From the NCBI RefSeq assembly GCF_024296685.1, contig NZ_CP100763.1, positions 3,472,001 through 3,536,000 on the forward strand: a stretch of DNA of 64,000 nt, given 5' to 3'. This document shows, piece after piece, positions 42,472 through 53,969 of the stretch (position 1 is the stretch's first letter; every line of letters starts with the position of its first letter). Below the pieces are notes generated by a model. The model searched no databases. It had not been told where the DNA came from and saw only the letters and a program-made list of their open reading frames with translations. The DNA is from Natrinema marinum. GTDB taxonomy: Archaea > Halobacteriota > Halobacteria > Halobacteriales > Natrialbaceae. Position numbers and translations under genes: made by a program.

Positions 42472-42649
42472 GCGTTGGCGGTTGTAGCGCCCGTGGGCCG
42501 AAAAACGTCTCGGTCGCGTCCGGCCGATTCGCGGTGGCAACTGCGCCTCGCCCCTGCCGCCCGAAATCGCGCGGTACGGAGTCGCACACCCCGATCACGG
42601 AGTCGTAACGTATTTCAGGCCGACCGCGTGTAGGATAACGTGCAAGCGT

Positions 42650-42722
42650 GTCCGGGTTGGGGTAGTGGTTATCCTTCAGCCTTGTGGAGGCTGAGACGCG
42701 GGTTCGATTCTCGCACCCGGAC
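42650..42722 (+). tRNA. tRNA-His (anticodon GTG)
   Basis: Cloverleaf: extra G-1 at 42650 opposite the final C 42722; acceptor TCCGGGT pairs with ACCCGGA; anticodon stem CAGCC/GGCTG; loop TTGTGGA with anticodon GTG at 42684-42686; T arm GCGGG-TTCGATT-CTCGC. The G-1 is the identity mark of tRNA-His. CCA is not encoded. A T run (ACTTTTT) follows directly and may end transcription. Confidence 0.97.
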
Positions 42723-42807
42723 TTTTTCGCGACGAACGGCGTAAGGAGCGATAGAGCCGGAAGGCGAGATCGTACCACGCGAGACGAGCGAGAGCGAGTC
42801 TCGCAGT

Positions 42808-42831
42808 CGGGTTCGATTCTCGCACCCGGAC
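42808..42831 (+). repeat. 24-base direct copy of tRNA-His 3' end
   Basis: Identical for 24 bases to the T-arm and acceptor end of tRNA-His (42699-42722), 109 bases downstream and in the same direction. This is what an att site or duplicated tail looks like after an element integrates into a tRNA gene; the space between is too small to hold an element, so it would be a scar. Confidence 0.8.
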
Positions 42832-42917
42832 GTTCTGTGGCGTCATCGCGAACGGAGTGAGCGATGGCTCGGAGCAGCCTTTCCGGCGAACAAACCCGTG
42901 AGCCACGGAAATAGTCG

Positions 42918-42931
42918 GAGAATCGAACCCG
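42918..42931 (-). repeat. 14-base inverted copy of the tRNA-His T-arm
   Basis: The complement of GAGAATCGAACCCG reads CGGGTTCGATTCTC, which equals tRNA-His bases 42699-42712. This is a third, inverted partial copy. Being short, it may be due to chance with T-arms in general, but it lies within 100 bases of the direct copy. Confidence 0.5.
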
Positions 42932-43080
42932 CCAGTCACAGCGGTCGAACTGTGGAGCGAGCACGTCCGGTTCCGGTCGGTTCTCACGCCGGTGTTCCCC
43001 TGTTTTGAATCCCGTTGCTGAGACAGTCAGCGCGGGACTGACTGGGTAGTCATACCCGACCGAGTTCTACGCTCGAGCGC

Positions 43081-43578
43081 TTACGCGGCCACTTCGTCTG
43101 CGGCGAAGTGCTCGCGGAGTTTCTCTTCGTCTTCCGGCGAGAGGTTCGTCTCTAGAACCTCGGGATCGTACGGTTCGAGTTCCTCGGTAACGCGTTCGCC
43201 CTCTACGTCACTCACGAGCAAGAACAGTGCGGACTGGCCGGGACCGATCGTTGTGCCGACCTCCTTGATGAACGAATCGTCGATTCCGATATCGGAGAAC
43301 TTTCCGCCCAATGCACCGGTTACCGCGCCAACCGCCATTCCCAAGACCGGTGCGAGAAAGATGAGCCCGATGAGCAGCCCCCAGAACGCCCCGCCGAGCG
43401 CACCCGCTCCGACGAGGCTCTTGGCTTGTTTGACATCCGTTTTGCCGTCCTCGTTTCGAACCACGACGGCGGCGTCTTCCATCGTGATCAACTCCTGTTT
43501 TTGCAACTCGAAGAGCTTGTCCCGCACCTCGAGTGCGCCGGTTTCGGTATCGAACGCGAGTACGATGAGTTTCTTCAT
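43081..43578 (-). CDS. DUF1269-family membrane-associated protein
   Basis: A 165-residue protein of the DUF1269/YlaN-like group: MKKLIVLAFDTETGALEVRDKLFELQ opens the domain, ITMEDAAVVVRNEDGKTDVKQ follows, and a glycine-rich hydrophobic stretch GAFWGLLIGLIFLAPVLGMAVGAVTGALG near the middle anchors it in or near the membrane. The family is widespread and its role unknown, though stress association is often proposed. The start is at 43578; the long frame upstream is not real. Confidence 0.85.
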   Translation of the reverse strand: MKKLIVLAFDTETGALEVRDKLFELQKQELITMEDAAVVVRNEDGKTDVKQAKSLVGAGALGGAFWGLLIGLIFLAPVLGMAVGAVTGALGGKFSDIGIDDSFIKEVGTTIGPGQSALFLLVSDVEGERVTEELEPYDPEVLETNLSPEDEEKLREHFAADEVAA

Positions 43579-43772
43579 TTCGAACTCCGGAGAAATTTCC
43601 ACCGAGGACTGAAAAGTACCTTTCCGGTGGTGGGAGAGAATGTCCATCGATGAGTGAATCAGCAAACCAGACTGTGGCCGAGAACGGGTCCTCTCTCTGT
43701 GATTCGCGACTGTTGCCGTACCGGCCGTCCACCTCTCGAAATCGACTGTCCGGTTTCGAAGATCTCGGTCGA

Positions 43773-44390
43773 TCAGCGTCGATTTCTGTTGCGGTTCTGA
43801 CTCGCCAGTACGTCGAGCGCGACGGTGCAGGCGATGGCGAGTCCCGCGTCCATCTCCGGTGAGACTTCGACGCCGTACGTATCGCGGAGGCGGAACCATT
43901 TCTTCGAAACCCCAGCGATACGATTCCCGTTTCGGATCATGCGGTACTCGTGGTTGAGGATGTTTCCGACGGACTGGATCGGTGGTCCTTCCGGCATGAG
44001 GATGATGAACCGGTCACGGATGGGCGTAACGAGCGCTCTCTTTACCGTCGCTGCGCGCTCTCCGTTTTTCTCGATGACCATCGTGTCCGTGACGCGAGCG
44101 ATTTTCTCCTGAATCGAATACTCGTCTCCGGTCGCGAGGTCCCGCATCTGCAGCGTGTTTCGAACGCGAAGCGCCTTCCCGTCGACGATGAACGCTTGTT
44201 GCCCGGCCTCGTCTTCGACGTAGTAATCGTCTCCGATGGAGACGAGTCGTTGCGTCATCTTGTATCGTTCCCAGCCACGTTCGCCATCGGTTGCCCCGTA
44301 GCTCTGCCCTGTGCGGTTATTTTGAAGTCGTTCCTGTCGCCTTGCTCGTCGGTTTTGGCGCCGTTTCTGGCGGTTCGCTCGTCGTCCCAT
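43773..44390 (-). CDS. LURP-one/scramblase-related protein
   Basis: A 205-residue protein. After a basic N-terminus (RRANRQKRRQNRRARRQERL) comes a beta-rich LURP-one/Tubby-C-type domain: RLVSIGDDYYVEDEAGQQAFI, VIEKNGERAATVKR and IRNGNRIAGVSKKWF. The late helix GLAIACTVALDVLASQ is typical and may be membrane-seeking. Relatives in bacteria and plants are membrane-linked or stress-related, but function is open. The basic N-terminus is unusual for a haloarchaeal protein and might bind nucleic acid or membranes. Confidence 0.83.
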   Translation of the reverse strand: MGRRANRQKRRQNRRARRQERLQNNRTGQSYGATDGERGWERYKMTQRLVSIGDDYYVEDEAGQQAFIVDGKALRVRNTLQMRDLATGDEYSIQEKIARVTDTMVIEKNGERAATVKRALVTPIRDRFIILMPEGPPIQSVGNILNHEYRMIRNGNRIAGVSKKWFRLRDTYGVEVSPEMDAGLAIACTVALDVLASQNRNRNRR

Positions 44391-44595
44391 ACGCGATGGA
44401 CGCTCCTGAGTGATATCAATGTGTAGTTCGTTTGACTAGTATGTCCGTCGGGACTGACGTTCTGGGGGGCGAAAAAGGCGATCGAAACCGTGACACGGCA
44501 GAGAAAGCGGCCGCCTCTCGAGTTCGCAGCGCGAGTGTGCCCGTGCGTTCACCACACACGCCACGGCGTTCCTTCCGACACCGGTTGACGGCCAA

Positions 44596-45969
44596 TCACG
44601 TACTGCTCGGTCGAGCGTGCGAGGCGTTATCTGCAGCCGTGACCGTAGCGGGAGGCCATCCGAGCGGCGGGTCCGGGGGTTCCGTCTCCGACACCTCCGC
44701 TTCGACGAACCCGACTCGAACGAAGACGTCTTCCCCTAGTTGCTCGGTCAGGAGGTCGTCGAGTTGCTGAGCGAGGTCGGGTGGTGCCGCGCGGTCGCGC
44801 GGAATGCCGATGAGGACGTTGACCTCCGGTTCGTTCCCGAGCAGTAAGTCGATGGGTTCGTAGTCGACGGTCACCCTGACAAGTTCGACATCGTCGATAT
44901 CGGCTTCGTTGAACTGTCGCTGGATTTCGTCCTGCGCGTTTGCTTCGTAGGACTGGGTCTGAAACGTGGTCCACGTGACGGCACCGAGGACGACCGAGAG
45001 GACCGCGATCCCGACGACGATAACCGCGATGCGAGAGACCACTGACTCTCGCACATCGGGGGACTGTTCGGGCTCGAGCGGTCTGAAGCCGGCTGCGTAG
45101 AAGAGAACGAGCGCCGAGAGGTTGATCGCGAGGAGGTTCACGAGGACGAGGACGCCCGCCCCGATAGCGACTCCAGGGGGGCCGAACGCGATTCCGAGAC
45201 CGGCGGTCGCCGCGGGTGGAATGAGGGCCACGGCGATGGCGACGCCCACGAGCGTCGAACCGCTTCCCCGCATGATACTGATCGCCCCCGCAAGGCCCGA
45301 ACCAAGGGCGAGAAAGAGCGCCAGGAAGTTCGGATTCGTCCGTTCTGTGACCTGCGGGATGGTCAGAATGTCGAGGTCGGGGGGAATGAGGATCGTCCCT
45401 TGGAGCACCCAGCCCATGATCGCACCGATCGCAATGGCGGAGACGAGGCCCGTCACCTGGAGGAAGACGCCGCGAGTGGCCATGCGCTGGTCGTCGAGAA
45501 TCGTTCCGACGCTCGCGGAGATGGCGGGTCCCATGAGCGGCGCGACCACCATCGCGCCGATGATGGTGGCGGCGGAGTCGAGTAACAGTCCCGTGGTCGC
45601 GATGATCGTACTCAGGACGAGGAACGCGAAAAACGTCGAGTTCGCCGGCGCGAGATCTTCCGCTCGCGCGTACAATTCCTCGCGCGAGATGCGAAGTCCC
45701 GGAAACCGTTCGATCAACGCGGAGAGTCGTTGTGAGACGACGGTCTCCGTCGCCATGACGATCGTGTAGGCGTCTTCCCGAACTCCTGCCGACGTCAATC
45801 GCTCCAGTATCGGTTCGACACCGCTCGGAGGGACGGGAAACTGGACCATCGCCTCGAAATCGCCTCGCCCGACTTCCTCGAAGACAGCGTAGTCGATACC
45901 TTCCTCATCGAGAGCCTCGAGAACTCCCTCCTGCTTCCCCTCCGGGATTAACACCTGCACGAGACGCAT
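44596..45969 (-). CDS. DUF389/TIGR00341 membrane protein
   Basis: A 457-residue protein. An N-terminal cytosolic ferredoxin-like domain (MRLVQVLIPEGKQEGVLEAL) is followed by about eight membrane helices in the DUF389 core (ATTGLLLDSAATIIGAMVVAPLMGPAISASVG, VGVAIAVALIPPAATAGLGIAFG) and a C-terminal soluble part. Family members are found in all domains; function unknown. Start at 45969 (MRLVQV), since the ORF before it is AT-rich leader. Nearby genes on the same strand (LURP-one, DUF1269, GAP) are not tightly linked. Confidence 0.9.
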   Translation of the reverse strand: MRLVQVLIPEGKQEGVLEALDEEGIDYAVFEEVGRGDFEAMVQFPVPPSGVEPILERLTSAGVREDAYTIVMATETVVSQRLSALIERFPGLRISREELYARAEDLAPANSTFFAFLVLSTIIATTGLLLDSAATIIGAMVVAPLMGPAISASVGTILDDQRMATRGVFLQVTGLVSAIAIGAIMGWVLQGTILIPPDLDILTIPQVTERTNPNFLALFLALGSGLAGAISIMRGSGSTLVGVAIAVALIPPAATAGLGIAFGPPGVAIGAGVLVLVNLLAINLSALVLFYAAGFRPLEPEQSPDVRESVVSRIAVIVVGIAVLSVVLGAVTWTTFQTQSYEANAQDEIQRQFNEADIDDVELVRVTVDYEPIDLLLGNEPEVNVLIGIPRDRAAPPDLAQQLDDLLTEQLGEDVFVRVGFVEAEVSETEPPDPPLGWPPATVTAADNASHARPSST

Positions 45970-46110
45970 ACTGAGAATAGAGTGTGTAAGATTATAAACA
46001 TATGTCCTGAGTAGCGAGACGGTCAGGGTTGTTTTCCGGTTGACAATATCGAGCACGCACGCTGGGCGGAACGATTACCCGCCACGGCACAGTGCCAGCA
46101 TCGGTCGTTG

Positions 46111-46743
46111 TCATCCGAGGAGGTTCTGGAGCGTCAGGACGACGAAGAGTGCGATCACCGCCTCAGAGATGATCCACGAGTTATCGCTCATCCAATCGCG
46201 AATCTCCGGGAGTGCGGACTCCGCCCGCTCGCCGAGTGCAAGCACGCCGAGTGAGGGGAGCGCCAAAATAAAGAGCGTAAGCAGGACGAACCCGGCCGCG
46301 TCCGCGACCGAATCGCCGTTTGCCGCGAGGTAGGTGCCGACGCTCATCGAGGTGACGATATCGGTCGGAAAAAAGCCCAGCAGGAGGAATCCCAGTCGAA
46401 ACGAGAACCGCGGCGTCGCGGCGGTCAATTTCCCCATCCACGCCGGCGGCTCCGAGACGTTCCGCGTCCGGTAGGTGTTCACTGCCGCGTAGAGGAGGAG
46501 GACGAGAACGACGACATAGAGCAGTTGTTTTGCGCTTGCACCGAGCAGGCTCCCACCACCACCGAGACTGCTCCCGAGGAAGTACGCCACGACGACGACG
46601 AGACTGATAGAGAGGAGCGCACCGAGGACGTACGCCGCCGAGTTCGCTCGCCACTTTTCGCTCGTGGCGAGGAAGATGGGTGAAAGTATCTGTGGGCCGG
46701 CGATCATCACGATCGCCAACGGAAGCACCTGTATGAGGCTCAT
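46111..46743 (-). CDS. GAP-family (LysE-like) membrane protein
   Basis: A 210-residue protein with six helices: SLIQVLPLAIVMIAGPQILSPIF first, then the repeat-like ISLVVVVAYFLG, LLYVVVLVLLLYAAV, FPTDIVTSMSVGTYLA and AAGFVLLTLFILALPSLGVLALG. The pattern fits the GAP/Sap group of the LysE superfamily, in which mycobacterial members move lipids to the surface. Here the substrate is unknown. It begins at the ATG at 46743. Confidence 0.82.
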   Translation of the reverse strand: MSLIQVLPLAIVMIAGPQILSPIFLATSEKWRANSAAYVLGALLSISLVVVVAYFLGSSLGGGGSLLGASAKQLLYVVVLVLLLYAAVNTYRTRNVSEPPAWMGKLTAATPRFSFRLGFLLLGFFPTDIVTSMSVGTYLAANGDSVADAAGFVLLTLFILALPSLGVLALGERAESALPEIRDWMSDNSWIISEAVIALFVVLTLQNLLG

Positions 46744-47221
46744 GGCTCGAACTCGTTTTTCTTCGGTTCGGTCTGTCGACCGGAGCCTCCGTTTTCGGGA
46801 ACGTGAATCCTTCGTAGCATTATCGTGCGTTTCTCTCGGAACGTCGTAAGCCGGCGGCGGCAATTAATGTTCCCAGATCATCAAAAAGACTATTTTCCAT
46901 TTTTCTTAGAAGTGTCGTGGTCGCTCGCGGTTACTTCGGTGTTGATCGCACCCAGCGAGCGCGTTGACGTCACTCGACGGTCGGCGGAAGACCGGTTCTT
47001 CGGGTACACTGCCTCCAGAAGAGTTCTCTGCTATACGGTCTCTTTCAGTGCGCGCCGAATATGGAGTGTCGTCTCTTCGGTACTATGTCGCGTATAGTTT
47101 GGGAGGTGGATATATTACTATGTATAACTGGCGGAATATGGAACATTATTCAGAATAGTCGTATGATCTGGATTCTATGAAGTGGGGTTTATAATAGGTG
47201 ACAGCGTAGTAATAATTGACC
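46744..47221. other. AT-rich divergent gap with promoter of the DUF5518 gene
   Basis: About 480 bases without a convincing gene between the divergent GAP and DUF5518 genes. It is strikingly AT-rich from 47080 to 47220. TTTATAATA at 47188-47196 is a good TATA box about 26 bases upstream of the DUF5518 ATG, so a leaderless transcript is expected. Short frames (46964-47158) lack protein character and are not claimed. Confidence 0.55.
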
Positions 47222-47626
47222 ATGACAATCAACTGGACAGCTGTCGTCGTCGGATTTGTCGTAACCCTCGCGTTAGGGTTCATCAGCGGCCTCATCTACG
47301 TTGGATCAGGAGCCTCGGTCGCGCTTCTGTACTGGGGAGGAATCGGCCTGTTCGGTGGGCTCACCGCCGGATACCTCGCAGGCGGAGCGATGAGCTCTGG
47401 CATGATCCACGGCGGTATGGCGACCGTCTTCGGGTCGCTGATCTTGCTGGTCATCACGTCCTTTACCACCCTGCTCTTCGGGGGCCTCGTCGCATCGTTC
47501 GGGGTGTTCACCGTCGGCGTACTCCTGCTCGCGTTCTACGCCATCCCCGGCGCCGTTGGTGGCGCGGTCGGATCGTGGGCGAAGCACCGCCGGGCCGCGA
47601 GAGAAATGACCGGTACTCGAGCCTGA
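47222..47626 (+). CDS. DUF5518-family membrane protein
   Basis: A 134-residue very hydrophobic protein with four helices (AVVVGFVVTLALGFISGLIY, GGIGLFGGLTAGYLAGG, ATVFGSLILLVITSFTTLLFGGLVASFGVF, VGVLLLAFYAIPGAVGGAVGSW). The glycine-zipper style and GLTAGYLAGGAMSSGMIHGG signature fit the haloarchaeal DUF5518 family, of unknown function. ATG 47222 follows a TATA box at the leaderless distance. Confidence 0.85.
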   Translation: MTINWTAVVVGFVVTLALGFISGLIYVGSGASVALLYWGGIGLFGGLTAGYLAGGAMSSGMIHGGMATVFGSLILLVITSFTTLLFGGLVASFGVFTVGVLLLAFYAIPGAVGGAVGSWAKHRRAAREMTGTRA

Positions 47627-47869
47627 GACCGGACTGAAACCTATTTTCTCTGACGAGTTCGGGGGAGTGACTGGAATCCGGCGCCGCTGAGTCGAGCTAC
47701 GGGCACTCGGTATCAGGACCCCGTCGGATTCGAGTGGGCGAAACGGACGTTACGCTTGGGGCGACTATCCGCGACTTGTCTCCCGCGACCTTGGCGGTAA
47801 ATAATAGTCTGTCCGGACACATATCAAAAAGCCAAAACCTTCATAACAGGTTATTTCTTCCATGAATGT

Positions 47870-48928
47870 ATGGTCTCGGAAGACATTCGACGGCGGCGAT
47901 TGTTACAAGTCTGCGGTGCGACACTAGCTGCCGGTGCAGCCGGCTGTCTCGGTGGCGGTTCGGGGAACGGAAGCGGCTCGGGGTCGGGGAACGGCGGCGC
48001 GGGGACGTCCGACACGCCGGCGTACGCACAGTGGGTGACGACGGTCGAGGACGAGGTCTCGCTCAGCTATCTCGATCTGGCGGCGCTGAACGAACTCGAG
48101 AGCGACGACGAGGACTCGAGCGGCGGCTCGAGCGGCCTCGAGGACATCGAGGATCCGATGCTTCGGCTGCCGCTGGCGGGTGCGTTTTCCGCCATGTTCG
48201 CCGCGGGCTTTGGCCTGTCGGGGTCGGGTCTCAGCGGTCTCATCAGCGATCAGCAGACGAGCGATACGAGCTTCGAGACCGCGATCGATGCCTTGCTCAT
48301 GACCAACGAGACGATCGTGCTGTCGGGCGACGTGGTGACCGACGAGATCGACGGCGAGTTGACGACCGTTGCGGAGAACTCGTTCGCCGAGATCGAGTTC
48401 GAACACACGTCCGACATCGGCGAGTACGCGGTCTACGAGCCCGCGGGCGACCAGGGGACGACGACGACGCTGGCCGTCGCTGGCGAGGCGATCGTGCAAG
48501 GGTCGAGCCTCACGGCCGTCGAACGGGCCATCGAGACGAAGCAGGGAGAGCGCTCCCGCGCCGTCGATGAACACGAGACGTTCCGGCGGCTGCTGGCGAC
48601 CGGCGGGCACGGGGAGATGGTGTTCGGTGGCTACAGCCCCGACGGATTCGACGGAGCCGGTTCGGGGGGGTCCTCGAGCGGGTCGTCCTCCGGGTTCCAG
48701 ATCGACGCGTTCACCGCCCTCAACGGGGCCGTCTCGTCGCTGTCGTTCTCCGGGTCGTCGGACGTGACTGGAGAGACGGCGCTGTCTTTCGACGAACTCG
48801 ACGAGACGGCACGATCCGACCTCGAGTCGGCGCTCGGCAAAACCAGCTCCGACGTGTCCGTGAACTTCGACGGCACCTTCGTCTCCGCGTCGGCGACGTT
48901 CTCGGACGACGCGCTTCAAAACGCCTGA
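47870..48928 (+). CDS. Tat lipoprotein, hypothetical
   Basis: A 352-residue protein with a Tat-type signal (RRRRLLQVCGATLAAG), a lipobox (AGAAGCLGGG) and a Gly/Ser linker. The mature part has a repeated two-half layout (VSLSYLDLAALNELE and later SSLTAVERAIETKQGE; QIDAFTALNGAVSSLSFSG) like many haloarchaeal extracellular lipoproteins of unknown function. The upstream sequence carries TCATAACAGG and TTATTTC AT-rich stretches near 47840-47855, a likely promoter. No neighbour suggests a role. Confidence 0.8.
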   Translation: MVSEDIRRRRLLQVCGATLAAGAAGCLGGGSGNGSGSGSGNGGAGTSDTPAYAQWVTTVEDEVSLSYLDLAALNELESDDEDSSGGSSGLEDIEDPMLRLPLAGAFSAMFAAGFGLSGSGLSGLISDQQTSDTSFETAIDALLMTNETIVLSGDVVTDEIDGELTTVAENSFAEIEFEHTSDIGEYAVYEPAGDQGTTTTLAVAGEAIVQGSSLTAVERAIETKQGERSRAVDEHETFRRLLATGGHGEMVFGGYSPDGFDGAGSGGSSSGSSSGFQIDAFTALNGAVSSLSFSGSSDVTGETALSFDELDETARSDLESALGKTSSDVSVNFDGTFVSASATFSDDALQNA

Positions 48929-48977
48929 ATCGGACCGCTCGTCAACGCGCCGTTTCAGCGTCCGCTCGAGCGACCCG

Positions 48978-49826
48978 TTAGGCCGCGTCCTCGAAAAACG
49001 TTGTCACCCGATCGACGAAGTACGCCGGCCGCTCCTCGGGGAGCCAGTGGCCGGCGCGGTCGACGACCTCGCCGTCGACGTCGGTGGCGACCGCGTTCAT
49101 GTCTCTGATGGGGAGCTCGCGAAAGGAGGCCTCGCCGCCGAGCGCGAGGACGGGGATCTCGAGCGGGTCCTCGGCGTGCTCTCGGTTGTTCTCGGCGTCG
49201 GCCTCGTAGGCGCGATAGTACTCGAAGCCGCCTCGCAGTCCGCCGGCTTGCGAGTAACAGCGGACGTACTCGTCGCGGGCGTCGTCGTCGATCGCTGCCG
49301 GGTCGTACGCGCCCTCCTTGTAGAACCAGTCGAGATAGAGCCGCTCGCGTCCGGCGACCAGCCGCTCCGGCAGGTCGCGGACGCCGTGAAAGCGAGTGTG
49401 CCAGAGGTGGCGTTTCTCGTCCTCGTTGACGCCCGGCAGTCCGGCCTCGAGAACGACGAGCGCGCGAACTTCGTCGCGGTACTGGGCGGCGTACGCGTAG
49501 GCCGTCGGCATCCCCCAGTCGTGACCGACGAGCCCGATCGGTTCGTCTCCGAAGCCGAGTTCGTGAACCAGCTCTCGCACGTCGGTCGCGACGGTGTCTT
49601 TATCGTAGCCCGAAACGGGGGTCTCGGAGTCGCCCAATCCCCGGAGGTCGGGCGCGATGACGGTGTACTCCTCGGCTAACTCCGGAATTACCTCCCGCCA
49701 CTCGTACCACGTCTGCGGCCAGCCGTGGAGCAAGACCACCGGCGGTCCGTCGCCGGCGGTGACGTAGTGCAGTTCGACGCCGTTGACGCGGGCCCGTCCG
49801 TGCTCGAAATCGTCACTTGCGACCAT
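48978..49826 (-). CDS. Alpha/beta hydrolase (epoxide hydrolase/dehalogenase type)
   Basis: A 282-residue hydrolase. HGWPQTW is the oxyanion HGxP motif at 34-40, the nucleophile is an Asp (D103 in GHDWG), and RAGHWLPEERP holds the His. An Asp nucleophile and HGWP are typical of epoxide hydrolases and haloalkane/fluoroacetate dehalogenases. Cap-domain Tyr residues are present (YYRAYEAD). Monocistronic by layout. The next gene on the same strand is an aldo/keto reductase, 112 bases upstream. Confidence 0.88.
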   Translation of the reverse strand: MVASDDFEHGRARVNGVELHYVTAGDGPPVVLLHGWPQTWYEWREVIPELAEEYTVIAPDLRGLGDSETPVSGYDKDTVATDVRELVHELGFGDEPIGLVGHDWGMPTAYAYAAQYRDEVRALVVLEAGLPGVNEDEKRHLWHTRFHGVRDLPERLVAGRERLYLDWFYKEGAYDPAAIDDDARDEYVRCYSQAGGLRGGFEYYRAYEADAENNREHAEDPLEIPVLALGGEASFRELPIRDMNAVATDVDGEVVDRAGHWLPEERPAYFVDRVTTFFEDAA

Positions 49827-49938
49827 ACCTCAGTGTCGGGGCGGTGATCTATCAGTCTTCCGTGATTCGGCGGGGACGACCGGTCGTACCGGGCGCGCTT
49901 CTCGCTCGCGGACCCGGCTCGAAGTCGACCGTTTCGAC

Positions 49939-50802
49939 TTACTCCGCCGCGTCGGTCAGCCGCTGTACCTCGTCGTCGGACAGCGACAGCCGCGAGGCGG
50001 CGACGTTCGACTCGAGGTGGTCGGGGTCGGACGTGCCCGGAATCGGGAGGATCACGTCGGAGCGCTCGAGCAGCCACGCCAGCCCGACCTGTCGCCGGGT
50101 CGCGTCGTGCTCGCCGGCGATCTCGTCGAGCAGATCGCCGTGTGCGTCCAGGTCGTCGCCGTTGATCGGCGCCCACGGGATGAAGCCGATGTCGTGTTCG
50201 TCGCAGTACTCGAGGGCCTCGCGGCTGCCGCGGTCGTTCAGGTTGTACCGGTTCTGGACGGTCGCGACCTCGACGTGTTCGCGGGCGCGCTCGATGAGGT
50301 CGACCGAGACGTTGCTGAGGCCGACCTGATCGACGAGCCCGTCGTCCTGAAGGTCGGCGAAGGCCTGTACGGAGTCTTCGAACGGCGTGTCCTCGTCGTC
50401 AGGTCGGTGAAACTGGTAGAGGTCGATGGTGTCGGTCCGCAGCCGGTCGAGCGAGGTGAGGGCCTGATTGCGGATGTAGTCGGGGTCGCCGTGGGCGATC
50501 CAGTCGCCGGAGCGGTTGCGCAGCAGGCCGGCCTTGGTCGCGACCAGCACGTCGTCGGGGTCGCCGATCGCCTCCCCGATGAGCCGCTCGCTGACGGCGG
50601 GGCCGTAGGAGTCGGCCGTGTCGACGAAATCGACGCCGCAGTCGACGGCGTGTTCGACGACCTCGCGTGCAGTCTCCTCGTCGTCGGGCGCGCCGATGAT
50701 GTCCTCGCCACAGAGCCGCATCGCACCGAAGCCGAGGCGGTGGACGGTCCTGTCGCCGATCTCGAACGTGTCGCTCTCGTTGGTGATCGAGTTGCTGCTC
50801 AC
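49939..50802 (-). CDS. Aldo/keto reductase
   Basis: A 287-residue TIM-barrel reductase. The catalytic tetrad is complete: D61 (VDTADSYG), Y66, K90 (VATKAGL) and His in LYQFHRP. The tail STSDPDHLESNVAASRLSLSDDE-like region (GTSDPDHLESN) binds NADPH. The start is the GTG at 50802 (VSSNSITNE), since the longer frame passes through the upstream gap. Substrate unknown; a second aldo/keto reductase at 59611 is clearly different. Confidence 0.92.
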   Translation of the reverse strand: MSSNSITNESDTFEIGDRTVHRLGFGAMRLCGEDIIGAPDDEETAREVVEHAVDCGVDFVDTADSYGPAVSERLIGEAIGDPDDVLVATKAGLLRNRSGDWIAHGDPDYIRNQALTSLDRLRTDTIDLYQFHRPDDEDTPFEDSVQAFADLQDDGLVDQVGLSNVSVDLIERAREHVEVATVQNRYNLNDRGSREALEYCDEHDIGFIPWAPINGDDLDAHGDLLDEIAGEHDATRRQVGLAWLLERSDVILPIPGTSDPDHLESNVAASRLSLSDDEVQRLTDAAE

Positions 50803-50950
50803 GGTTTCGGTACCGGGCCGCGGAGGGAAAATCGTTAGCCGTTGCGAGTGCCTTGCCGGAACCGCTGCTGGAGAGCGGTTCGGATCGAGCCTCTGGGGCT
50901 GTTCCTCTGCTCGAGCGGATCGATCCGTTCGGAATTTGGCCAACAGACTG

Positions 50951-50985
50951 TAATATTAAAACATTATTTATTATCATGTAGCTTC
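50951..50985 (+). promoter_or_regulatory. AT-rich promoter before RDD gene
   Basis: TAATATTA followed by AAACATTATTTATTATC directly precedes the ATG at 50986. The first element is about 30 bases from the start and fits a TATA box for a leaderless or short-leader transcript. No named operator is recognised. Confidence 0.5.
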
Positions 50986-51441
50986 ATGCAACGGTATCCA
51001 ACACCGAACACGAACGAAATTGCCGGCGTTCTCGACCGACGCGCCGAAGCACTCATCATCGACGGCTTGCTCGTCGCGATCGCAGTCGGTATGCTCGGCT
51101 ACGTCTTGGGACTGGTCGCAATCGGCGGCTCGCTCGGCGGATTCGGCGGCTTCTTGCTCGCCGTCCAGTTCGGCGCACCGGTCGCACTCGTGGTGTATCA
51201 GGCAGCCTTCGAAGGGTACTACGGACAGGCGGTCGGCAAACGGGCGCGGGGAATCGTCGTCGTTAGAAAGGACGGGTCTCGCTGCACCTGGGGGGCGGCC
51301 GGACTTCGGAACCTTCTCCGAACCGTCGATATCCTCCCGGTTTTCTACATCGTCGGCATCGTCACCGCCTACATCTCCGCCGACCAGAAACGCCTCGGCG
51401 ATCTCGCCGCGCGGACGGTCGTCGTTTCGACCGATTCCTGA
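50986..51441 (+). CDS. RDD-family membrane protein
   Basis: A 151-residue protein. VLDRRAEALIIDGLLVAIAVGMLGYVLG holds the R..D pattern of RDD proteins in the first helix. A second helix pair (QFGAPVALVVYQAAFEGYYGQAVGKRARGIVVVRKDG) and the final TVDILPVFYIVGIVTAYISADQKRLGDLAARTVVV complete the family shape. RDD proteins are small integral membrane proteins of unclear, possibly transport, function. The start is the ATG MQRYPTPNT, next to an AT-rich promoter. Confidence 0.87.
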   Translation: MQRYPTPNTNEIAGVLDRRAEALIIDGLLVAIAVGMLGYVLGLVAIGGSLGGFGGFLLAVQFGAPVALVVYQAAFEGYYGQAVGKRARGIVVVRKDGSRCTWGAAGLRNLLRTVDILPVFYIVGIVTAYISADQKRLGDLAARTVVVSTDS

Positions 51442-51484
51442 CGGGCCTCGCGTCGCTGCCTCGTCCGATACCTCCCGTCGTCGC

Positions 51485-51663
51485 TCACCCGTCGGTGATA
51501 AACGAGTTCCGTGCCGGTGGGTAGCTCACGATCGTCGAGAGCCACAGCGTGTACGACAGGAGGAACGCGAGCGGGGCGAAGGAGACGGCACACAGCAGGT
51601 GAATGCGGCCCGCAACATCATCTTCGAGATCGGCGGCTGGATCGGAGCGTCGTAGACGGGCAT
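51485..51663 (-). pseudogene. Frameshifted one-TM microprotein
   Basis: Two frames make one sensible protein of about 58 residues. MPVYDAPIQPPISKMMLR runs in the first frame from 51663; after TGCTGTGTG (about 51589-51597) the second frame continues as CAVSFAPLAFLLSYTLWLSTI, then VSYPPARNSFITDG and a stop. The first frame is open for only 45 codons and becomes Arg/Ser-rich noise after the shift. A 2-base gain (TG repeat) or 1-base loss would explain it. It could be a pseudogene, a sequencing error, or a programmed shift. Confidence 0.4.
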
Positions 51664-51758
51664 CGCGACCGCCGAACTGCCGATCGCGACTCCCCTCTGG
51701 TTCTTGCCGACTGACACCAATGCACACGATCTAACTTGCCGGCGACCGTAGCTCTGCT

Positions 51759-52049
51759 GTGGTCTCCCCCGGACAGATTTACGCCGCGGTCTGCATTGGC
51801 CTCCTGCTCGCCGCGTTAGGGATCTGTCTCCCGGTCCTCGGCGGCATCTTTCGGGACGGCCTCGAGCGCCAGCGAGACCGTCAGTCCGAAGCAAGCAGCC
51901 GCGACGCTGCGGACGAGACGGCCGTTCGAACGTCGACGACTTCGCTCGAGGAGGACACGGCGGAGGGATCGAAACTGACCTGTCGACAGTGCGGTGCGGA
52001 GAACGATCCTGCGTTTCGGTACTGTCGATGCTGTGTGGGGCTGATCTGA
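51759..52049 (+). CDS. Zinc-ribbon protein with N-terminal TM helix
   Basis: A 96-residue protein. A hydrophobic segment (GQIYAAVCIGLLLAALGICLPVLGG) near the N-terminus is followed by a hydrophilic disordered stretch and a C-terminal zinc ribbon CRQCGAENDPAFRYCRCC. Start is GTG at 51759. Resembles the halobacterial DUF7577-type zinc-ribbon proteins of unknown function. It is divergent from the frameshifted microprotein. Confidence 0.75.
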   Translation: MVSPGQIYAAVCIGLLLAALGICLPVLGGIFRDGLERQRDRQSEASSRDAADETAVRTSTTSLEEDTAEGSKLTCRQCGAENDPAFRYCRCCVGLI

Positions 52050-52167
52050 CCGCCGACCCCACGGCGTTGCGTTTTCGGACATCGACACCGCGCACGGACC
52101 AACCGGTACCCGTACGTCGTCCGTGGATTGCAACGCTCTTCCACAGATATCCACGTCGGAGAGAAAT

Positions 52168-52240
52168 GCCGCCTCCCGGATTTGAACCGGGGACAGCTCG
52201 ATCTTCAGTCGAGTGCTCTCCCAGTCTGAGCTAAGGCGGC
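52168..52240 (-). tRNA. tRNA-Phe (anticodon GAA)
   Basis: Minus-strand cloverleaf: acceptor GCCGCCT with AGGCGGC; D arm around TAGCTCAGACTGGGAGAGCA; anticodon stem CTCGA/TCGAG and loop CTGAAGA with anticodon GAA (52204-52206); T arm with GGTTCAAATCC. No intron and no encoded CCA. No copy of its 3' end is seen downstream, unlike the His and Val tRNAs in this window. Confidence 0.97.
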
Positions 52241-52505
52241 CCACTCTTCTCTCCGTCCATGGTATAAAAAAGGATTTCGGATCGGAATCGTCGTCCCCGG
52301 TCCCCTTACAGGAAATTCGTCCTCGGTTCGAGCTGGTCACCCACTGACGGTTACAACGACAATACCGTCACGTCTTCTCACGTAAGGTACGCGAACAACA
52401 TGTTACAGGTCGGATACAGTGGCGCCTCCACACGATTCCTCCTCGTCTGTTAGATTATCGGATATTCAAGACACCCTTTTGCGCTCCGGGGGGTAATATC
52501 ATGTT

Positions 52506-52952
52506 ATGGAAGCCCTTACCTCGAGCCGGGCGGCCGAAGAGCTGTCTGCCGACACGATCCTCGAACTACTGGCGAACCGACGGCGACGCTACTTGCTCTA
52601 CGCGCTCCGTGGACAGGAGGCCCCGATCGAGCTTTCGACGCTCGCCGAGACGGTCGCCGGCTGGGAACACGACGTGCCGCCGGACGAAGTCGCGAAAAAC
52701 GAGTACAAGAGCGTCTACGTTTCCTCGGTGCAGTGTCACGTCCCGAAACTGGACGACGCCGGCGTCGTCGACCACGACGAGGACAACCACACCGTTATCC
52801 TCGCGGACAACTTCGACCAGCTCGAGCCGTACCTCCGGGTCGTCGTCAAAGACGAGCCGGAGAACTCGACGCTCCACGCCGCCTTACAGACCGAGTCAGG
52901 CGACGGCCTGCTCGGTCAGATCCGGGAGAACGTAGCGCGCCTCAAGCAGTGA
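52506..52952 (+). CDS. DUF7344-like HTH protein
   Basis: A 148-residue protein: ADTILELLANRRRRYLLYALRGQE opens a winged-helix of the halobacterial DUF7344 group, then YKSVYVSSVQCHVPKLDDAGVVDHDEDNHTVIL supplies the recognition helix and wing. It carries a longer C-terminal tail than the gene at 8424 but clearly belongs to the same family. Regulator of unknown target. ATG start at 52506, with TAATATCATG just before it. Confidence 0.87.
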   Translation: MEALTSSRAAEELSADTILELLANRRRRYLLYALRGQEAPIELSTLAETVAGWEHDVPPDEVAKNEYKSVYVSSVQCHVPKLDDAGVVDHDEDNHTVILADNFDQLEPYLRVVVKDEPENSTLHAALQTESGDGLLGQIRENVARLKQ

Positions 52953-53098
52953 CTACTCCGATTCCCGCCCGTACGACCCGGCATAGTGAGTGATTAGCCT
53001 GTCCGGACTCGAGGGATCGGCTGATGCGTCGGTGGGTTCGCCCGCCTGCTGTCGGTTCTTGGCCGCTCGAGCGGTTCGTACTCGATCGGCCGATCGAA

Positions 53099-53118
53099 GG
53101 ACTCGGGCGGGTTCGAAC
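53099..53118 (-). repeat. 20-base copy of tRNA-Val 3' end
   Basis: GGACTCGGGCGGGTTCGAAC matches tRNA-Val bases 53220-53239 with one mismatch, 121 bases downstream of the tRNA 3' end and in the same direction as the tRNA. TCGCTCACTGCGTTCGC (53130-53146) beside it equals, with one change, the complement of the 17-mer found near tRNA-His. Confidence 0.75.
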
Positions 53119-53219
53119 GACGCGAAGACTCGCTCACTGCGTTCGCTCCGTCTTCTCTCGTTCGAACCGCCGCTCGCGACAGATGTCTGCCGCTCACGTA
53201 TTGTTTGCGGCAGAAATAT

Positions 53220-53292
53220 GGGCTCGGGCGGGTTCGAACCACCGACCTCGGCCTTGTAAAGGCCGCGTCATGACCAGCTAGACCACGAGCCC
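53220..53292 (-). tRNA. tRNA-Val (anticodon TAC)
   Basis: Minus-strand cloverleaf: acceptor GGGCTCG with CGAGCCC; anticodon stem CGGCC/GGCCG and loop TTTACAA with anticodon TAC (53256-53258); T arm GGTTCGAACC. No intron, no encoded CCA. A partial copy of its 3' end lies 121 bases downstream. Confidence 0.97.
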
Positions 53293-53354
53293 GCATTCGG
53301 GTGGAGTGCCCCCGTCCGAATAACCTTTACCTTCTCGCGGCACAGCTATCGTGC

Positions 53355-53969
53355 ATGGCACTCGAGCGCGTATGGAAGGTGCTTCTCGTCGTCGGGATCG
53401 TCGGCCTCGGTAGCGTCGTCCTCGTCCAGGCCGGATTCGTCTCGCCCCCGTGGGGACCCGACGAAGGGACCGCCCGCGTCACCGACAACGAATCCGACGA
53501 CGATCCCAAGGCCGTCATCGATGTGGAGGTCGCAACTTCCTACCAGGAAAAGCGTACTGGACTGAGCAACCACGAATCGCTCGAGTCGGGCAACGGCATG
53601 CTATTCGTCTTTGACCAGGAAGCGGACCGAACGTTCGTGATGCGGGAGATGGACTTCCCCATCGACATCATCTACATCGGTGCCGATCACGAGATCACGT
53701 CGATCCACCACGCCCGTGCACCCGGCCCAAACGAGGACGGGAACAACATCCGGTACCCCGGTCGCGGAAAGTGGGTCCTCGAGGTGCCACGCGGCTACAC
53801 GAACGAGACGGGGATCGACGTCGGCGATTACGTCGAGATCGATCTCGAGTCCAATCAGACGATCGTCTCCGAAGCAGGCGCGAGTGCCGGCGCGGTCGCG
53901 CCGATCGCCGCGAGCGGTGTCTCGAGTGCACGACGAGCGGCCGAGCGCGCGAGCTATTTCGATTCGTAG
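53355..53969 (+). CDS. DUF192-family protein, membrane-anchored
   Basis: A 204-residue protein. One N-terminal helix (VWKVLLVVGIVGLGSVVLVQAGF) anchors it, then the DUF192 core: YQEKRTGLSNHESLESGNGMLFVFDQEADRTFVMREMDFPIDIIYIGADHEIT and a late GKWVLEVPRGYTNETGIDVGD. DUF192 is a small beta-barrel family of unknown function. Start at MALERVW. The C-terminus is Ala-rich. Upstream of an ABC exporter gene by about 37 bases; likely separate. Confidence 0.88.
   Translation: MALERVWKVLLVVGIVGLGSVVLVQAGFVSPPWGPDEGTARVTDNESDDDPKAVIDVEVATSYQEKRTGLSNHESLESGNGMLFVFDQEADRTFVMREMDFPIDIIYIGADHEITSIHHARAPGPNEDGNNIRYPGRGKWVLEVPRGYTNETGIDVGDYVEIDLESNQTIVSEAGASAGAVAPIAASGVSSARRAAERASYFDS

Follow-up and report, generated by a model that had tools for sequence, protein, structure and literature searches.

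The window analysed here, the whole 64,000-nucleotide stretch of the Natrinema marinum chromosome from C1:3472001 to 3536000 (in a genome of 3.77 Mb, labelled G000), contains two tRNA genes that are each followed by a short unit ending in a copy of the tRNA's own 3' tail. The tRNA-Val gene (TAC; 53219–53292, minus strand) has its unit at its 3' side. Numbering by tRNA nucleotide (nt), the first module of this unit begins at nt 74 (53176–53218, minus strand) and includes a hairpin, CTGCCGC..GCGGCAG at 53187–53213, recognized by eye. A second hairpin (53104–53174, minus strand) is made of a stretch antisense to the T-arm, an inner stem, a tip and the first part of the copied tail; the tail copy itself, from G53 to nt 73, lies at 53098–53118 (minus strand) with 2 mismatches of 21. 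The 17-mer TCGCTCACTGCGTTCGC (53130–53146, plus strand), which reads GCGAACGCAGTGAGCGA on the minus strand, is the tip of the second hairpin. The other unit-bearing gene of the window is tRNA-His (42650–42722, plus strand; 42650–42723 by ARAGORN, 42651–42722 by RF00005), whose unit consists of a first module (42723–42761), a second hairpin (42762–42825) and a tail copy without mismatches (42811–42831), all on the plus strand. Beyond it lies a decayed older unit (42832–42993, plus strand, right end set by eye) that contains the tRNA-His 17-mer (42848–42864); the sequence with which this decayed unit starts (42832 onward) adjoins tRNA-His directly in genome G018.

The copied tail of tRNA-Val and the near-identity of its 17-mer to that of tRNA-His had been noticed from the sequence beforehand, and both observations hold. 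Allowing up to three mismatches, the 20-base tail pattern occurs at two places in the window, the tRNA itself and the copy with one mismatch, against 0.07 expected, and the 17-mers, which are one base apart, occur at six places against 0.74 expected (expectations from dinucleotide shuffles). The inverted repeat GAAGAC/GTCTTC can likewise be seen to border the tRNA-Val 17-mer. The original prediction went on to propose that the two tRNAs have copy distance, direction and companion motif in common beyond chance. The tail copy, its distance and its direction are borne out in the genome, the genus and the order, and the 17-mer is enriched behind tRNA genes, but its placement is not equivalent in the two units: at tRNA-Val it is the tip of the unit's own hairpin, and at tRNA-His it lies past the tail copy, in the decayed older unit. 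Because the places are not equivalent, the 17-mer common to the two window units is partly fortuitous. The tRNA-Phe gene (52167–52240, minus strand), said to lack the element, indeed has no tail copy here, but this does not extend to the genus: among 29 genomes, our own included, a tail copy with at most 4 mismatches of 21 follows tRNA-Val in 26, tRNA-His in 22 and tRNA-Phe in 11.

We compared the downstream regions of all tRNA genes of the genome, taken as the 45 matches over the Rfam cut-off. A tail copy (at most 3 mismatches of the last 22 nt, same strand) lies 88–128 nt downstream of 10 of the 45: Ile-GAT, Gly-GCC, Val-GAC, Val-CAC, Val-TAC, Ser-GGA, Ser-TGA, His, Leu-TAA and Leu-TAG. Farther downstream, the sole matches are a second copy at Ser-GGA, with 3 mismatches, and a neighbouring tRNA-Asp gene; in the 500 nt upstream, the best match has at least 7 mismatches, except for one tRNA-Asp gene that matches its tRNA-Asp neighbour. 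These two tRNA-Asp genes form a tandem pair with identical tails, 262 bp apart (G000:C1:3270512-3270846). The 17-mer has 11 matches in the genome at no more than one mismatch, 4 of which fall within 200 nt downstream of a tRNA gene (binomial p 1.1e-8). The link was to be taken as accidental if most tRNA loci lacked both elements and the 17-mer was a common genome word; 35 of the 45 genes do lack a tail copy at 88–128 nt, but the 17-mer is rare.

Three of the 17-mers away from tRNA genes (L034, L038 and L040; G000 148310, 2576894 and 2974496) stand in a common longer intergenic context, ...GAGGGA(T/C)GAGCGAACGNAGTGAGCGA(A/G)TCGGCTGGGGAGGGCGTG..., apparently another repeat family of the genome with the same hairpin tip. 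An IS605-like right end may be the source of the 17-mer; the open reading frames (ORFs) listed at two of the three loci were viewed by eye.

The unit has a recognizable anatomy. It measures about 100–160 bp and usually opens, at the base after the tRNA (nt 74), with a first hairpin that often has a T-rich start, followed by the second hairpin. By eye, this second hairpin begins with a 5' arm antisense to the tRNA T-arm. About two unpaired bases separate this arm from the inner stem, which encloses a TCGC-like stretch, a tip such as GCGAACGNAGTGAGCGA and then CGT; the second strand of the stem is followed by roughly three unpaired bases, and the tail copy forms the 3' arm. The tip often resembles the 17-mer. 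Inner-module lengths cluster at 37, 45 and 53–55 nt. The motif CGNAG, with all four bases at N, is found in 131 of 140 distinct units, counted anywhere in the unit rather than at the tip alone, and its complement in 48. Loops of the CGNAG type are exceptionally stable in DNA, and the GCGAAGC DNA mini-hairpin has reportedly been the subject of published papers. Among the tRNA-Val units of the genus, one (L124, genome G007) has extra nested palindromes inside a hairpin loop and is about 55 nt longer than usual.

That the second hairpin is maintained as a structure is indicated by folding and covariation. Eight units of this genome fold with z scores of -2.77 to -5.84 relative to shuffles, the second hairpins of tRNA-Val and tRNA-His having minimum free energy z scores of -3.87 and -3.88. 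The first modules in six other genomes have a median z of -2.71, with 63 of 95 below -2 (for modules of 20–100 nt, each compared with 30 mononucleotide shuffles). Covariation in ten units of this genome amounts to 27 alignment cells changed on both sides of a pair, compared with 10.3 after shuffling. In the larger sample of 144 matches, drawn from 100 of 111 fetched loci and aligned by fitting to the model described below, 438 cells changed on both sides compared with 138.6, a signal found in 21 of 24 pairs and lost when the partner was slid.

We built a covariance model of the second hairpin, R1, from those same ten units of this genome. It finds 11 matches there at E < 1e-8, all behind tRNA genes; ten are the training set, which includes tRNA-Val (66.1 bits), and the eleventh, at Val-CAC, is a near-copy of Val-GAC. 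Weak matches are present at Lys-TTT (E 0.13) and in the tRNA-His unit (17.2 bits, E 0.14). At E <= 0.001, R1 matches in 36 of 41 genomes, our own included. At E <= 1e-6, it matches in 39 of 246 genomes sampled over the phylum, and all 39 are labelled as the same genus, family or order. Matches are thus found in 39 of 43 sampled genomes of the order, at 1–18 per genome and at up to 41 with a looser threshold; this denominator adds the four listed genomes of the order without a match and takes 187 unlisted genomes without a match as lying outside the order, judging from the sort order.

The link to tRNA genes is close. In six genomes (G014, G020, G027, G230, G239 and G279), R1 at E <= 0.001 gave 164 matches, of which 150 were listed and fetched, and a tRNA 3' end lies no more than 536 nt upstream of 144 of these 150 (in three of the 144, the match is to the opposite strand of a near-palindrome). 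Close upstream of the remaining six, inspection by eye shows a tRNA-like tail, which is what interrupted tRNA genes or earlier units should leave. The second hairpin of the nearest listed unit begins 3–341 nt past the tRNA, and the most distal listed one at 536 nt. The matches listed cover 35 ARAGORN tRNA labels and 11–22 tRNA loci per genome, with 22 in G279. R1 itself holds T-arm letters, and we therefore also scanned for a pattern free of tRNA letters, AAGTCGCAGCGCGAACGNAGTGAGCGACCGTCTT, a 34-nt inner hairpin with one free position. It matches 13 times, in 12 stretches that come from 12 named records, and every one of these stretches follows a same-strand tRNA gene (Glu, Leu, Gln, Leu, Ala, Leu, Lys, Gln, Ala, Pro, Pro and Phe). 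The carriers are Natrinema, Halostagnicola, Halovivax, Natrarchaeobius, Halorientalis, Halobacterium, Halomicrobium, Halosegnis and one Halobacteriales metagenome-assembled genome.

The copied segment has sharp ends. By position, identity to the tRNA is 0.22–0.35 at nt 49–51, 0.69 at nt 52, 0.99 at G53 and 0.92–1.00 from T54 to nt 73 (0.94 at nt 73 itself), and then falls to 0.58; the profile comes from 108 of 144 units chosen for at most 2 mismatches over T54–73, so that values inside the tail are partly set by this choice. Compared with the last 21 nt of the tRNA, the unit tail shows 0–2 differences in 108 of 144 units and none in 64. CCA follows the tail copy in only 1 of 120 cases, which speaks against copying of mature tRNA, and we rejected retro-copying as a source. 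On average, the antisense arm has 2.76 mismatches of 13 to its own tRNA and 4.17 to the other tRNAs of the genome.

Units also occur in tandem, up to five behind one tRNA-Gly. Of 26 arrays, 12 have a first tail closer to the tRNA than the last one, 3 have a last tail that is closer, and 11 are tied (p 0.035), a count that skips two groups of equal distance (two tRNA-Gly and two tRNA-Asp genes). Related species carry different units at the same tRNA: the tRNA-Val units of the genus show, by eye, several unlike types of first and inner hairpin combined differently between genomes, and flank identity is a poor guide to unit identity (300 pairs, 25 genomes, rho 0.13). An identical tandem duplicate is present in Halorientalis (L127), and 144 inner modules include six pairs of identical ones, both members of each pair lying behind a single tRNA of a single genome. 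Inner modules with at most 3 mismatches at different tRNA labels make up 23 pairs, 6 of them inside one genome, which are too few to name a donor. Two tRNA-Val loci, L111 and L101, show by eye a whole unit followed by the 3' half alone of an older second hairpin, cut near the tip, as if tips were break points.

Comparison of filled with empty sites shows what is gained or lost. We took six pairs from the best-scoring comparisons and aligned the 80 nt after the copied tail of the filled site with the 80 nt after the tRNA of the empty one, then the next 100–300 nt, with tRNA end against tRNA end as a control. The three values are 0.96, 0.88 and 0.33 for tRNA-Phe L297/L302; 0.89, 0.92 and 0.66 for tRNA-Phe L290/L285; 0.94, 0.58 and 0.15 for tRNA-Phe L291/L283; 0.89, 0.88 and 0.66 for tRNA-His L315/L321; 0.88, 0.60 and 0.64 for tRNA-His L309/L334, where L309 is the window's own locus; and 0.93, 0.85 and 0.64 for tRNA-Val L109/L100. 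The top-scoring tRNA-His pair, L312/L307, reaches 0.97 and falls to 0.44 farther out. In these best pairs, a filled site has a single unit (module and 21-bp tail) more than the empty one; this unit adjoins the tRNA, and older units or the former 3' flank are pushed outward. The alignments imply that the event is the gain or loss of one such unit. L315 and L109 each have a new, unlike unit ahead of the displaced older one.

Taken together, insertion-like events, sharp ends, arrays and a covarying hairpin lead us to favor an exchange of cassettes as folded DNA at the T-arm. On this account, which we regard as having an even chance of being right, the units are a family of gene-less cassettes of about 100–160 bp that gather behind haloarchaeal tRNA genes and recombine as folded DNA at the tRNA tail. 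Hints of folded DNA are that the sense strand folds better than its complement with DNA as well as RNA parameters and that CGNAG is far commoner on it; the turnover at tRNA-Val and, weakly, the polarity of the arrays also favor the account. The second hairpin would serve as a folded, single-stranded DNA attachment site, in which pairing of the antisense arm with the tail would rebuild a double-stranded T-arm. A recombinase supplied in trans could then swap strands with the T-arm of the tRNA gene near G53/T54, so that the tRNA would be restored and the new unit would come to lie between the tRNA and older units, which would decay; the 21-bp direct repeats would also permit precise loss. A bolder version, which we hold only tentatively and think somewhat more apt to be wrong than right, is that this is an archaeal cassette system with tRNA genes as its primary sites, in which single-stranded hairpin cassettes that mimic the double-stranded T-arm of one tRNA are inserted by a trans-acting recombinase and build tRNA-proximal arrays across the order, an integron-like chronicle without genes.

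Several observations weigh against this account. An integrase of the IntI type (TIGR02249) scores over the cut-off in 0 of 12 unit-bearing genomes and below it in 9 of 12, as it does in 14 of 14 controls; Cas1 (PF01867) is present in 5 of the 12, one of them partial, and was not found in this genome. Neither is supported as a universal enzyme. No free circle, viral form or phage form came to light: three exact patterns had no match in viral contigs and one unit had none in phage records, in searches that left plasmids outside. The polarity of the arrays is weak, and an empty site could reflect precise loss instead of gain. Two of the filled and empty pairs, L291/L283 and the window's own L309/L334, lose similarity past 100 nt and are less clean, since the 100–300-nt match is just 0.58–0.60. 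L101 and L105 keep the first module and differ, by eye, in the inner hairpin alone (flank identity 0.95, unit identity 0.88); such a swap of the inner hairpin by itself, seen in some pairs, is not predicted by simple insertion of whole units. A one-base insertion relative to the tRNA tail, improving the match by at least 3, is found in 13 of 144 units, at nt 57–59 in 12 of the 13 and with 0–3 mismatches left. A crossover at G53/T54 predicts that the distal tail is the former tRNA tail, and these insertions must then be later. The antisense arm is best matched, or tied, with its own tRNA in only 82 of 144 units, and the cassette account does not explain its match to the local tRNA.

A second possibility, which we consider unlikely though worth keeping in mind, is that the units act as structured RNA, transcribed with or after the tRNA, the second hairpin having a part in tRNA 3' processing or termination or serving as a small RNA, and the antisense arm pairing with the tail copy or the tRNA. 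The strong covariation and the location behind tRNA genes would suit such a role, as would the sense-strand bias of folding, which is larger with RNA than DNA parameters: of 140 units, the sense strand folds better than its complement in 102 versus 37 with RNA parameters and in 88 versus 50 with DNA parameters, the rest being tied. G-U pairs occur at some positions (U-G 39 and G-U 18 of 140 at two pairs), and TTT lies within 8 nt after 40 of 94 tRNAs and 35 of 120 copies. Against such a role, the tail copy is missing at 35 of 45 tRNA genes here and, across the 29 genomes of the genus, at tRNA-Phe in 18 and tRNA-His in 7; related species carry differing units at one and the same tRNA, and up to five units follow a tRNA. 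Nor does any known RNA family of Rfam 15 cover the units: at the gathering score, the matches over 12 loci are 13 tRNAs and, elsewhere in L060, a ribosomal-protein leader, and at E <= 1 those over window positions 42600–53400 are three tRNAs and, on the complement of tRNA-Phe, one match below threshold, with no match to a unit in either search.

It is also possible, if improbable, that there is no dedicated element and that slippage during replication, template switching at palindromes and recombination of one 21-bp tail with another lengthen the arrays. The tails are indeed direct repeats and the hairpins palindromic, identical tandem duplicates such as the Halorientalis one and the six pairs of identical inner modules are on record, and the half unit behind a whole one at L111 fits palindrome-driven rearrangement. 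Against this, the new units of L109/L100 and L315/L321 are unlike those they displaced and the 34-nt inner hairpin is common to units at Glu, Leu, Gln, Ala, Lys, Pro and Phe tRNAs of 12 named records; recombination between tails also leaves the first unit at an empty site unexplained.

Relics of proviruses or integrative plasmids, for which the tRNA 3' end would have served as attB and the tail would be the remaining attR, are a very unlikely source. The identity block of att sites usually reaches nt 73 of the tRNA, as the tail copy does. Archaeal integrases, according to PMC8371274, have their sites in tRNA genes at the anticodon stem-loop, the T stem-loop and the 3' end. Yet the second hairpin is conserved and covaries, it has no viral or phage match in the searches above, and all 150 matches listed adjoin a tRNA (144 within 536 nt) or a tRNA-like tail; with 2 kb of flank inspected on these, we found no long element ending in the second hairpin, and we rejected an ordinary provirus or plasmid scar as the main account. 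Chance, or a common GC-rich word, has a negligible probability and was rejected too: 7 of the 11 genomic 17-mers do lie away from tRNA genes, but the 4 that do not (p 1.1e-8), the 10 tail copies at 45 tRNA genes, the 12 of 12 and 144 of 150 linkages, the covariation and the filled and empty pairs all speak against it.

Set beside known systems, the proposed cassettes resemble integrons in working. Integron cassettes have a folded attC site, and the newest cassette stands first. Like them, the units are arranged in tandem, and each ends in a hairpin of variable sequence and conserved architecture with unpaired internal loops; the boundary is G^TT-like. The newest unit may also be proximal: the filled and empty pairs agree with this, and tail decay points weakly the same way (12 versus 3, with 11 ties, p 0.035). 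Unlike them, the units leave no room for cargo genes, judged by size with no ORF search run (the second hairpin starts 3–536 nt past the tRNA), no attI is known, IntI is over the cut-off in none of the 12 genomes, and the primary site is a tRNA gene whose own tail is the site sequence. Because IntI was not found and there is no room for genes, the resemblance is one of working and not of membership.

The units share with tRNA-targeted integrative elements, which use tyrosine recombinases at T stem-loop and 3'-end sites (PMC8371274), an intact tRNA, an identity block to nt 73 (here from G53) and accretion at one tRNA, but at about 100–160 bp they are, by size, too short for an integrase gene, they occupy many tRNA genes at once (22 loci among the G279 matches listed), and they have a conserved hairpin. 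Casposon or CRISPR-type integration, in which a short target is duplicated and growth is proximal, would also yield local tails, and PMC4046053 gives five cases in which a casposon target site overlaps a tRNA 3' end. The 21-bp copy is, however, the tRNA itself, the units are far too short for PolB, and Cas1 was not found in 7 of the 12 unit-bearing genomes, this one included. Miniature inverted-repeat transposable elements (MITEs) and palindrome-associated transposable elements (PATEs) of haloarchaea are likewise short, gene-less, palindromic and repeated, and are tabulated for Haloquadratum in PMC3119063, which also places partial tRNA copies at the ends of prophage-like regions of 6.7–52 kb. 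The units appear to differ from these in that, among the 150 matches listed, they are seen only behind tRNA genes or tRNA-like tails, with the tail of the local tRNA. We found no account of the units in the literature searched, which mostly left out subscription journals and may have missed an older report.

What is established is that the units are a recurrent trait of tRNA 3' flanks in haloarchaea; judging by their features, they seem to be small mobile cassettes without genes, of a kind apparently not yet described. If exchange as folded DNA is correct, then folded DNA sites are in use outside classical integrons, tRNA genes can gather small DNA undamaged, and the arrays could act as strain markers. 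If the RNA reading is correct, the units form a large new family of tRNA-linked structured RNAs. Annotators of haloarchaeal genomes should also note that a provirus is not implied when the tail of a tRNA is copied some 100 nt downstream of it.

Two further tRNA observations concern the genome and the window. Two more tRNA-His-like sequences, at G000:C1:3134265-3134338 and 3431194-3431266, have 93% and 91% identity to tRNA-His and are outside the RF00005 list; comparable second tRNA-His-like copies are present in many genomes of the genus. At 44465–44562 of the window, ARAGORN calls a tRNA-Arg that is absent from the RF00005 matches and is probably a false call.
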